Positions 86-30,041 of a DNA stretch of 64,000 bases are shown here, in pieces. Position 1 is the stretch's first letter, and every line of letters begins with the position of its first letter. The DNA is from Rhodobacteraceae bacterium CG17_big_fil_post_rev_8_21_14_2_50_63_15 (GTDB lineage Bacteria > Pseudomonadota > Alphaproteobacteria > Rhodobacterales > Rhodobacteraceae). The DNA lies in contig PFEY01000094.1 in assembly GCA_002783205.1 (NCBI GenBank), positions 962-64,961 on the forward strand. The letters are read 5' to 3'. The position numbers were made by a program, and so were the translations under genes. The notes below the pieces were generated by a model. The model saw only the letters and a list, made by a program, of their open reading frames with translations, ran no database searches and had not been told where the DNA came from.

Positions 86-1240
86 TCAGGCCGCGACGGT
101 CTGTGCGGCGATCTCGGTCTCGAACGCCCATTGGATCCACGGCATGAGAGCGGCCACATCGGCGGTTTCCACCGTGCCACCGCACCAGATCCGCAGGCCC
201 GGCGGTGCGTCGCGATAGGCGCCGATGTCATAGGCGACACCGGCTGTTTCGAGCCGCTTGGCGACGGATTTGGCAAAGGCTGCGCCATCGGTGATCCGCG
301 CATCCTCAAAGGTCAAACACACCGAAGTATTCGACCGGATCGCCGGATCAGCCGCCAGAAAGGCGAGCCAATCGTTTTGCGCCACGAATTCCTCGACCGC
401 CACCAGATTGGCATCGGCGCGGGCCCGCAGACCCGGCAGACCACCAATGTCTGCCGCCCAGTCGAGTGCGACGAGGTAATCCTCGACTGCGAGCATCGAC
501 GGCGTGTTGATCGTCTCGCCCGTGAAAATGCCCTCGATCAGCTTGCCGCCCTTGGTCAGGCGGAAAATCTTTGGCATCGGCCAGGGCGGCGTATGGCTTT
601 CAAGCCGTTCTACCGCGCGGGGGCTGAGGATCAGCATGCCATGCGCCGCCTCGCCGCCCAGCACCTTTTGCCAGGAGAAGGTCGTCACATCGAGCTTGTC
701 CCAGGGCAGATCCTGCGCAAAGGCGGCAGAGGTGGCATCGCAGATCGTGAGACCCTGACGATCGGCCTTGATCCAGTCGCCGTTGGGGACGCGCACGCCT
801 GAGGTCGTGCCGTTCCAGGTAAAGACCACATCCTTGTCGGTATCGACGCCAGACAGATCGACGATCTGGCCATAATCGGCGGTCTTGACCACGGCATCGA
901 GCTTGAGTTGCTTGACCGCATCCGTAACCCAGCCTGCACCAAAGCTCTCCCAGGCGAGCATCTCGACCGGGCGGTCCCCCAGCAGAGACCACATCGCCAT
1001 TTCCACAGCGCCGGTGTCGGAGGCGGGCACGATGCCGATCCGGTAATCGACCGGAACGCCGAGGATGGCGCGGGTCTTGTCGATCGCAGCCTTGAGCCGG
1101 GCCTTGCCGACAGCGGCGCGGTGGCTGCGACCCAAGGGGGCGTCAGACAGCATGTCGAGCGTGAATGTGGGGATCTTGGCGCAGGGGCCAGAGGAAAAAC
1201 GCGGATTTCCCGGCCGCGTTGCCGGTGCTTCAATAGCCAT
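86..1240 (-). CDS. serC: Phosphoserine aminotransferase
   Basis: 384 aa; alphaproteobacterial SerC-like N-terminus ([16 protein letters not shown]) and PLP-site region ([28 protein letters not shown]); divergent from serB. Confidence 0.93.
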
Positions 1241-1345
1241 ATAGCTACCCTTTCAGATAAGCGCCCCTCGTTGGGGAGGGGTGTCCCACGGACGGGATTA
1301 CGGCCAAGCGGGGTCTTTCGCAAGTGCAGAAATGACGCTAAACCG
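1241..1345 (-). ncRNA. Candidate serC leader RNA motif (alphaproteobacterial serC 5' UTR)
   Basis: 5' UTR of serC on - strand reads ...cgaaagaccccgcttggccgtaatcccgtccgtgggacacccctccccaacgaggggcgctt..., with stems tccc/ggga (1284-1287/1294-1297) and cccctc/gagggg (1264-1269/1276-1281). Confidence 0.5.
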
Positions 1346-26441: not shown

Positions 26442-27245
26442 ATGCTGCGCTTTCTCTTTCTGGTCCTGGCCGGTGCTCTGTCTGGCCCCGCGCAGGCGCA
26501 GGACAGCCGTCTGCACAAGCTCGAAGTCGGAGACGAGGCGCGCCAATGGGAGGCGGTGGGGCGGCTCGATCTTGGCGGGCGCGGGTTCTGCACGGGTGCT
26601 CTGGTCGCGCCCAATCTGGTGCTGACGGCGGCGCATTGCCTCTATGACAAGGCCACCGGCGCGCGACTTGATCCTGCGCGGATCGAGTTCCTTGCCGGCT
26701 GGCGCAACGGGCGGGCCGCAGCGACGCGATCGGTGCGGCGCGCGGTGAGCCATCCCGACTACGATTATGGCAATCGCGTCACGGCCGAGCGCGTGCGCAA
26801 CGATCTCGCGTTGCTCGAACTTTATCATCCGATCAACAACACGACCATAACCCCGTTCGAGACGGATGAGCGCCCCCGCAAGGGTCAGAAGATCGGCGTT
26901 GTCAGCTATGGCAAGGACCGGGCCGAGGCGCCATCGCTGCAAAACATCTGCGAGGTTCTGGCGCGTCAGGACGAGGTTCTGGTGATGTCCTGCGATGTCG
27001 ATTTCGGATCGAGCGGGTCCCCCGTCTTCAGCTTTGAGGGTGGCGTGCCGCGTATCGTCTCAGTCGTGTCGGCGATGGCCGAGGTCGAGGGGCGCAAGGT
27101 CTCGCTTGGCACCCGGCTGATTGACCCCCTACAGGTGCTGCGCGCAGCCCTTGACGCGGGCGAGGGCGTGTTTCAGGACGCTGCGCCGAAGATGTTCACC
27201 ACCGGTACCCGCCGCGAAACCGGTGCGAAATTCGCGAAGCCATGA
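26442..27245 (+). CDS. Secreted trypsin-like serine protease (paralog 1)
   Basis: TAAHC, NDLALLEL, FGSSGSPV catalytic triad; signal peptide. Confidence 0.9.
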   Translation: MLRFLFLVLAGALSGPAQAQDSRLHKLEVGDEARQWEAVGRLDLGGRGFCTGALVAPNLVLTAAHCLYDKATGARLDPARIEFLAGWRNGRAAATRSVRRAVSHPDYDYGNRVTAERVRNDLALLELYHPINNTTITPFETDERPRKGQKIGVVSYGKDRAEAPSLQNICEVLARQDEVLVMSCDVDFGSSGSPVFSFEGGVPRIVSVVSAMAEVEGRKVSLGTRLIDPLQVLRAALDAGEGVFQDAAPKMFTTGTRRETGAKFAKP

Positions 27246-28060
27246 TCCGGTTGCGTCATTTCCTGACTGCGTTTGGCCTCTGTGCCGCGATGAGTGGCCC
27301 TGGCCTGACCGAGCCGAGTGGCCTGATCCGGCTTACCGATCGGGACGATCTCTTTGGCTGGGAGGCCGTCGGTCGCGTCGATATCGGTGACTCGGGCTTT
27401 TGCACGGGCGTGCTCATCGCGCCCGATCAGGTGCTGACCGCCGCGCATTGCCTTTTTGATTCTGCCGGACAGCCGGTGCCTGCGGACACGATCCGCTTCC
27501 GGGCCGGGTTGCGCGACGGGGTGGCCATCGCCGAGGCCGATGTCGCACGCTACGTGGCCGCACGCAGCTATGATCCGGCGGCGGGCATGCAGGCGGACAA
27601 TGTCCGTCAGGATGCGGCGCTCCTGCATCTTGGTACGCCGATCCAGAGTGGGCTTGCTGCACCCTTTCGCCTGCATGAGGCACCGCGCGAGGGCCAGCGG
27701 GTGAGCGTTGTGTCCTATGGCCAGAACCGCGACAGCGCCCCCTCGTGGCAGCGCGACTGCGGGCTTTTGTGGCGGTCAGAAGGGCTGATGGCCTTCGATT
27801 GCAACGTCATCTTCGGATCCTCCGGCGCCCCGGTCTTTGCCAGGGACGGCCAACGCGCGCGCATCATCTCCCTGATCAGTGGCGGAAACTGGGAGAATGC
27901 CGAAAAACGCGCCATCGGCATGGATCTGCCCGCCCTCGTCGCCAGCCTCAAGCGGGATTTAATGACCATGCCTTCGGCTAGCATCGGCAACAGCGGATTT
28001 CGGCGGATGCCGGTGGGGGATGGCGCGCGCGCCTCGGGCGCCAAATTTGCTCGGCCCTGA
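27242..28060 (+). CDS. Secreted trypsin-like serine protease (paralog 2)
   Basis: TAAHC, QDAALLHL, FGSSGAPV; signal peptide; 4-nt overlap with paralog 1. Confidence 0.9.
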   Translation: MIRLRHFLTAFGLCAAMSGPGLTEPSGLIRLTDRDDLFGWEAVGRVDIGDSGFCTGVLIAPDQVLTAAHCLFDSAGQPVPADTIRFRAGLRDGVAIAEADVARYVAARSYDPAAGMQADNVRQDAALLHLGTPIQSGLAAPFRLHEAPREGQRVSVVSYGQNRDSAPSWQRDCGLLWRSEGLMAFDCNVIFGSSGAPVFARDGQRARIISLISGGNWENAEKRAIGMDLPALVASLKRDLMTMPSASIGNSGFRRMPVGDGARASGAKFARP

Positions 28061-28074
28061 CCAGCGGCGCGGGA

Positions 28075-28103
28075 CTTGACAAGGCACGTCGCACTTCCCA
28101 AAT
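28075..28103 (+). promoter_or_regulatory. Sigma32 (RpoH)-like promoter of hsp20
   Basis: CTTGAC-N17-CCAAAT. Confidence 0.5.
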
Positions 28104-28107
28104 TCGG

Positions 28108-28200
28108 GATGCTCCGGTGCCAGATCACGGGCCGGACGCATCGACGCCTGTCCCCGCGGGGAGGGCATGACATCAGGTATCGCTCAATGGAGGATGACCC
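28108..28200 (+). ncRNA. ROSE-like RNA thermometer in hsp20 5' UTR
   Basis: Hairpin gatgctccgg/ccgga-c-gcatc (28108-28142); middle GC hairpin (about 28145-28166); final hairpin AUC-G-CUC/GAGGAU (28179-28195) with UCGCU (28180-28184) sequestering SD GGAGGA (28189-28194), start ATG 28201. Confidence 0.72.
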
Positions 28201-28668
28201 ATGCGCAACTTTGATCTTGCACCGCTTTATCGTGCAACCGTCGGCTTTGACCAGATTGCCGACCTTCTGGATCGGGTAATGGCCAGCGATGTGCCGCAAC
28301 CCACATACCCACCCTACAACATCGAGAAAACCGCCGACGATGCCTATCGCATCTCGATCGCCGTCGCGGGCTTTGCCGCAGGAGATCTCACAGTCGAGGT
28401 TAAAGAGGGCGCGGTGGTGGTATCGGCCACCAAGGCGGAGGATGACGGCAACCGCACCTATCTGCACCGTGGCATCGCGACCCGCGCCTTCGAGCGGCGC
28501 TTTCAGCTCGCCGATCATGTGAAGGTCACGGGGGCAAGCCATGTCGATGGCATGCTGCATATCGACCTGCAGCGTGAAGTGCCCGAGGCGCTCAAGCCAC
28601 GCCGCATCGCGATTGCCAATGGCGAAACCGGGGTAAAAGATGTGATCGAGGCCCAGAAGGTCAACTGA
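28201..28668 (+). CDS. Hsp20 family small heat shock protein (IbpA-like)
   Basis: MRNFDLAPLYRATVGFDQIADLLDR; YPPYNIEKTADDAYRISIAVAGF alpha-crystallin domain. Confidence 0.95.
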   Translation: MRNFDLAPLYRATVGFDQIADLLDRVMASDVPQPTYPPYNIEKTADDAYRISIAVAGFAAGDLTVEVKEGAVVVSATKAEDDGNRTYLHRGIATRAFERRFQLADHVKVTGASHVDGMLHIDLQREVPEALKPRRIAIANGETGVKDVIEAQKVN

Positions 28669-28726: not shown

Positions 28727-29968
28727 TCAAAGACGGCGGGCCTCGATCAGCACCTCATCCGCTTGGCCACCGATCAACTGGAGCGTGCCGTTTTCGGTGA
28801 CATCAAACCGCGTCACTTGTTCCAAGGCATCTAGCATCCTTCGTTCCTGCTCCATCAGAGGCTCGGGGCAGGCCATCATCGTGCTGCCCATTGCGCCAAA
28901 ATGCAACCCTTCCCCCGTCAGGCTGAACCCGCCGACCAGACGGTTGCACCCGCCACTGCCGGCTACACGGCCGGGCGCGATAAAATTGAGCGACAGGCGC
29001 TCCACTTCGATCAGGTCTGCAGATCCCATGGCGGTGATCTGCCAGGGCGATCCGATCAGAAGGTCCGACGGATCGCCGCCACAACCGCGCAGGATCCGGG
29101 TGCCCAAGACCAGTTCGGCACTATCCGGATAAGGCATTCCGGTCGCATCATCATGGCAGAGCGACTCGCGGATGCTGAGGCGCGCATCTATCGAGGGCAT
29201 GTCGAGCAGATAGGCCGCATCAATGACCTTCACTTTGGGGCGCGGCACAGAGTGGGTGATCGCGCCATAATCGGCGGTAATCTCGGCCGTGGTTTCGTTG
29301 AGTACCACAGCCCAGCCCGGCTCGTTCCCACGCGCACGATAGGGGCCAGCGTCCGGTGAAGGTGCCTTGACGCATAATGGCAGATCGCGCCCCTCAAGGC
29401 GGATCGTCATCTCTTCGCCCTTGTTCCATACACTCGTTTCGGGATCATTGATCCCTTCATACCGCGCGCCCGAGGCCGCCACGACTTGCCTGAGCGGGAT
29501 ATCCCGCCCTTCGGCCCGCAGCACCATCTCTTCGTTCAGAATGCCGATAGAGACAGTAAGGTCGCCGCAGACGAAATCGGTCACAAATGCCATCGGCGTC
29601 ACCGGTTCGAGAACCAGGTTGCCGAGATCAAGCGCATCCGCACCGGCGTCAAGCAGCACGTCCCGAAGAATCCATCGCACTTGTCCCTGAACGCGGATTA
29701 CCGCGCTCAGACGTCCAGCCAGACCTCTCGGGATCTCCATCGCGAAGGGGAGCGGCACCTGCAGGCCATCGGCCGTTAGATGGGTTTCCGCCAGAAGGCT
29801 GCCAAAACGCCCTTCAACGGCAACAATCGCCTGAGCGTCAGGTGGCAGCGCGATCCGCTGCAAATAGCCGACCGCACCCGACACCTTGCGTTTGCCGCTC
29901 TCCTGCGCTGTCGCTGAAAGCGATGCTGACAACACAAGCAGTCCGGTCAGAATGACGGAGCGGAGCAT
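28727..29968 (-). CDS. Multi-domain envelope protein: YbaY-like + COG3650/MliC-like + META/HslJ-like
   Basis: Signal peptide MLRSVILTGLLVLSASLSATA; YbaY-like N-term; RARGNEPGWAVVL; META-like LIGSPWQITAM...SGGCNRLVGGFSLTGEGLHFGAMGSTMMACPEPLMEQERRML. Confidence 0.78.
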   Translation of the reverse strand: MLRSVILTGLLVLSASLSATAQESGKRKVSGAVGYLQRIALPPDAQAIVAVEGRFGSLLAETHLTADGLQVPLPFAMEIPRGLAGRLSAVIRVQGQVRWILRDVLLDAGADALDLGNLVLEPVTPMAFVTDFVCGDLTVSIGILNEEMVLRAEGRDIPLRQVVAASGARYEGINDPETSVWNKGEEMTIRLEGRDLPLCVKAPSPDAGPYRARGNEPGWAVVLNETTAEITADYGAITHSVPRPKVKVIDAAYLLDMPSIDARLSIRESLCHDDATGMPYPDSAELVLGTRILRGCGGDPSDLLIGSPWQITAMGSADLIEVERLSLNFIAPGRVAGSGGCNRLVGGFSLTGEGLHFGAMGSTMMACPEPLMEQERRMLDALEQVTRFDVTENGTLQLIGGQADEVLIEARRL

Positions 29969-30041
29969 TGGTGGTCTCCCTTGCCAAGTCGGAACTGCAC
30001 GTAGTCTAGCCATTGCTCTGGCAGAGGTCGAGGGTCGAATG

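Follow-up and report, generated by a model that had tools for sequence, protein, structure and literature searches.

The window, i.e. the whole 64,000-nt stretch of DNA analysed here, carries near its middle a gene for a small heat-shock protein, hsp20, which directly follows two consecutive genes for trypsin-like proteases and converges with the gene for a protein containing YscW, MliC and META domains (Table 1). Named matches of an Hsp20 protein search came mostly from Roseovarius and other Rhodobacteraceae, on which basis the source genome was placed as a Roseovarius-type member of this family. In many relatives, too, hsp20 is preceded by the 3′ end of the second protease gene (..GAKFARP), which suggests that the protease-hsp20 gene order is conserved. 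Between the proteases and hsp20 lie a predicted RpoH (sigma32) promoter and a structured 5′ leader, the subject of this analysis.

Table 1. Positions of the hsp20 leader, its elements and other features in the window.
Feature	Position	Strand	Basis or detail
serC leader RNA	1240-1291	-	Rfam RF00517, 71.3 bits
Two consecutive trypsin-like protease genes, directly 5′ of hsp20	26442-28060	+	
-35 element CTTGAC of predicted RpoH (sigma32) promoter	28075-28080	+	sequence read directly
-10 element CCCAAAT	28097-28103	+	16 nt 3′ of the -35 element
Predicted 5′ UTR of about 90 nt, containing the ROSE element	28109-28200	+	covariance model R1, E 4.3e-19
Hairpin I, conserved part UCCGGUGCC...GGGCCGGA, bulged G28119	28113-28136	+	genus covariation; RF00435 hairpin I match
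Hairpin II, GCCUGUCCC-CGCG-GGGAGGGC, bulged G28150	28146-28166	+	arms 28146-28154 / 28159-28166
Hairpin III, putative thermosensor, Shine-Dalgarno sequence (SD) buried	28176-28199	+	leader folding; pairing in 95% of cells across 55 orthologues
UCGCU anti-SD motif, G28182 unpaired	28180-28184	+	class-wide U(U/C)GCU
SD GGAGGA	28189-28194	+	near-invariant in genus alignment
hsp20, small heat-shock protein, 155 aa	28201-28668	+	PF00011, 67.2 bits (cut-off 20.8)
Gene convergent with hsp20; product has YscW, MliC and META domains	28730-30013	-	

A first-pass annotation of this DNA had proposed a sigma32-like promoter, CTTGAC-N17-CCAAAT, at the right distance to start the leader. Its coordinates hold (CCAAAT at 28098-28103), and the parse is equivalent to the CTTGAC-N16-CCCAAAT used here; judging from the position of the -10 element, transcription would begin at about 28109-28111. 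The assignment to sigma32 is likewise supported: CTTGA[A/C] stands upstream of hsp20 in all 55 genus orthologues, with a spacer of 15-17 nt (16 in nearly all) and, in nearly all, a C-rich A/T -10 element at fixed spacing, while class-wide CTTGA precedes 51 of 55 other leaders against 2.6 expected, and RpoH is encoded in the source genome. Known alphaproteobacterial RpoH promoters share the CTTGA -35 element, a spacer of 15-16 nt and a C-rich -10 element ending in T, both in Sinorhizobium meliloti, whose RpoH1 consensus is quoted in PMC4843759 as CTTGAA-N15-16-CCTATAT, and in Rhodobacter sphaeroides, where the TTG and T-9 of RpoHI promoters are important (PMC3441632). The window promoter departs from its relatives in the last -35 position, which is C here, whereas it is A in most of the genus. 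A simple sigma-70 promoter scan gave no match at the hsp20 promoter, as expected for an RpoH promoter. Given the match to the known consensus, with its conserved fixed spacing, and the RpoH gene in the genome, hsp20 would be transcribed in an RpoH-dependent manner.

Three hairpins make up the leader, as the first-pass annotation had described, and its extent of about 90 nt, the GC hairpin, the coordinates and the pairings all proved right. In the window, hairpin I pairs GATGCTCCGG (28108-28117) with CCGGACGCATC (28132-28142), leaving C28137 bulged. The 10-bp stem with one bulged C reported for this position does form, but its lower half is not conserved: conservation is confined to the part from U28113-A28136 upward, plus the CC/GG pairs around the bulged G28119, and the lower extension GATGC/GCATC (to 28108-28142) is peculiar to the window sequence. 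The upper part runs on into two further C-G pairs around G28119, like the Rfam ROSE consensus. Hairpin III consists of GGUAUC-G-CUC (28176-28185), the loop AAUG (28186-28189) and GAG-GAU-g-ACC (28190-28199), so that direct reading bears out the earlier account of a last hairpin pairing AUC(G)CUC with GAGGAU around an AAUG loop, which buries the SD and leaves the G of UCGCU unpaired. A small upstream ORF (ATG at 28167), judged by eye, is not conserved in the orthologues.

Conservation was assessed in 55 aligned orthologues of the hsp20 upstream region (the genus set). The promoter and all three hairpins are kept in every one of them, and 89-99 nt separate the promoter from the ATG; 92.5% of cells are paired, and compensatory changes occur at 11 of 26 pairs. 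Covariation reaches 0.141 versus 0.090 in shuffled alignments (none of 500 shuffles was as high) and at most 0.091 in slid versions. Hairpin I contributes compensatory changes at seven of its nine pairs, and 95% of cells in hairpin II are paired. The G of UCGCU (G28182) is invariant (55/55), and the GCU/GAG core of hairpin III shows little or no variation, which is why genus-level support for this core takes the form of conservation rather than covariation.

To look beyond the genus, the 55 leaders served to train a covariance model, R1. It finds one strong match in the source genome, the window element itself (E 4.3e-19). Two weak extra matches (E 3.5, the next best, and 5.2) were set aside as chance because their 3-kb loci contain no Hsp20-coding match. 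Among 387 alphaproteobacterial genomes, 54 are positive (E <= 0.01), and all 49 checked matches outside the source genome lie directly 5′ of hsp20 on the same strand; all 80 named Rhodobacteraceae hsp20 loci likewise carry the element, whose end falls at the hsp20 start. Across the class, compensatory changes occur at 24 of the 26 pairs (hairpin II: seven of eight pairs covary). Covariation, again above every shuffle, amounts to 0.587, with 0.187 for shuffled alignments and no more than 0.10 for slid versions; this alignment was fitted to R1 and thus leans towards the structure. By inspection, 55 of the 56 leaders have U(U/C)GCU facing the SD; the other reads ACGCT. The Rhodobacterales leader probably represents one lineage of a single hsp20 control cassette that spans the alphaproteobacterial class, was inherited with the gene and combines an RpoH promoter with a three-hairpin ROSE element; most members would fall below the Rfam cut-off, and ROSE elements would be much commoner than annotated.

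With permissive settings, RF00435 (ROSE) came top of 4227 families for the leader stretch. The covariance check against Rfam ROSE that the first-pass annotation had called for gave a divided answer: the alignment is full length (model positions 1-94) and in the right place, over 28113-28207, i.e. to just beyond the start codon, but its score of 21.3 bits stays below the gathering cut-off of 45. No ROSE element scores at gathering level anywhere in the window, and RF01832 (ROSE_2) did not match the leader stretch. In other genera of the class, hsp20 leaders likewise match RF00435 over its full length but below threshold, with 23-34 bits, at the start of the gene. As this curation threshold is reached in just three of the 387 genomes, the silence of Rfam reflects model coverage rather than absence, and the missed cut-off limits the Rfam label, not the kind of element. 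The current ROSE model therefore overlooks most such leaders (three versus 54 of 387 genomes), a shortfall that a model built from the present alignments would mend.

Taken together, the evidence makes it very probable that hsp20 is transcribed by RpoH and that its leader contains an RNA thermometer of the ROSE type. This identity, already put forward in the first-pass annotation, is sustained by the full-length RF00435 alignment including the bulged G of hairpin I, by U(U/C)GCU opposite the SD, by the position of every tested match in front of an hsp20 gene and by class-wide covariation. The predicted leader also has the general build of ROSE elements: it lies in front of a small heat-shock gene and extends to the start codon, its 3′ hairpin pairs U(U/C)GCU imperfectly with the SD, and its three covarying hairpins fall within the usual two to four, of which the upstream ones are stable. 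From this membership, and from the features described for the group (PMC3669281, PMC4166951), we infer temperature-dependent melting and translational control of hsp20. Heat would raise RpoH activity and hence transcription from CTTGAC-N16-CCCAAAT, yielding the leader of about 90 nt. At growth temperature, hairpin III would pair UCGCU with the SD, with G28182 staying unpaired or making a non-canonical contact, and block ribosome binding; on heating, its imperfect helix would open and Hsp20 would be produced. Hairpins I and II would remain stable and may aid folding or stability.

Folding predictions agree on the structure and say little about its melting. In leaders folded up to the AUG, hairpin III dominates in 55 of 55 orthologues (core pair P >0.5; median 0.99), including that of the window (about 0.99). 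A rival fold appeared in the window leader when 15 coding nt were added (hairpin III P 0.05), and was rejected as a cut-point effect, hairpin III being back with 30 (0.98) or 60 nt (0.92). The predicted stability of hairpin III declines gradually, from -6.3 kcal/mol at 37 °C to -5.2 at 42 °C, SD accessibility is nearly flat below 50 °C, and its difference from shuffled upstream sequence is modest (P about 0.01). Since nearest-neighbour rules leave out the non-canonical pairs of ROSE, this shallow melting argues neither for nor against thermosensing. Taken at face value, it would also suit a leader that dampens translation constitutively or stabilises the mRNA, all heat control being transcriptional via RpoH, whose promoter is indeed strongly conserved. 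We nonetheless regard this as unlikely: the G has stayed unpaired and the UCGCU/SD helix imperfect although a single deletion, that of G28182, would make hairpin III far more stable in silico (-10.1 instead of -6.3 kcal/mol at 37 °C), and the entire ROSE architecture is preserved across the class with compensatory changes.

Less probable still is that the inverted repeats serve a heat-shock repressor as its DNA operator, an idea to which the conserved block just 3′ of the promoter lends itself and which has a precedent, as conserved nucleotides of the Bradyrhizobium japonicum element were first taken for the binding site of a temperature-responsive transcription factor (PMC4166951). Here, however, the most conserved positions are the bulged Gs, the SD and the sequence complementary to it, insertions and deletions change the lengths between hairpins in the genus alignment, and the sequence of hairpin I covaries freely, which is easier to reconcile with pairing in RNA than with a fixed binding site for a protein. 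Finally, a chance or assembly-specific sequence devoid of function, to which an ordinary single-sequence folding energy (z -0.8 to -1.4) and the sub-threshold Rfam score might point, is refuted by the 55/55 orthologues, the 80/80 family loci and the hsp20-only matches across the class: conservation of the leader is overwhelming even though its folding energy is unremarkable.

Further hsp20 copies deserve a brief description. A second hsp20 paralogue occurs in genus relatives. Its leader is ROSE-like as well: it has a UCGCU-type hairpin with an unpaired G facing an AAGGA SD (e.g. 237-270 of one locus; GAC..GUC-G-CUU..AAG-GAC..GUC) and follows a promoter of the form CTTGC...CCCATATT. A PF00011 search of the source genome, whose assembly is 94.5% complete, did not find this paralogue. 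The other Hsp20 gene of the source genome has no ROSE motif in its leader (about 1330-1395 of its contig), which contains a CCUCCUU able to pair with the SD AAGGAGG.

Small heat-shock genes of alpha- and gammaproteobacteria are a known setting of ROSE elements, and more than 40 candidates in these classes were predicted in 2005 (cited in PMC4166951). With respect to the RF00435 family, founded on ROSE1 of B. japonicum hspA, the window leader shares the position directly 5′ of a small heat-shock gene, a hairpin I of the type CCGG..GCC/GGgCCGG with a bulged G, the anti-SD motif with an unpaired G ahead of CUC, and the SD GGAGGA. It differs in having UCGCU for UUGCU (C-G for U-G beside the bulge), a weaker lower stem in which G28196 bulges out, and a shorter hairpin II. 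The ROSE-like elements of Pseudomonas and Escherichia coli ibpA (PMC3669281; RF01832) have the same U(U/C)GCU anti-SD hairpin before a small heat-shock gene and the same combination of RpoH and RNA thermometer, a dual control that is established for Pseudomonas ibpA (PMC3669281); these gammaproteobacterial elements have different upstream hairpins, and Pseudomonas has two hairpins in all. For Nautella sp. R11 of the same Roseobacter group, PMC3230580 reports, from sequence alone, ROSE-like motifs before ibpA and hspD, members of the same gene family. In the light of these motifs and the earlier candidates, the leader belongs to a known kind and is a solid but expected example, ROSE having already been reported in another Roseobacter. 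The present contribution is quantitative: support from covariation, occurrence exclusively at hsp20, linkage with the promoter, and a measure of how far the Rfam model falls short. Covariation, and not inspection alone, shows a ROSE-type leader behind a predicted RpoH promoter on hsp20 for a marine Roseobacter-group genus and for much of the class, and marine strains that live well below 37 °C would lend themselves to studying how such a thermometer is tuned.
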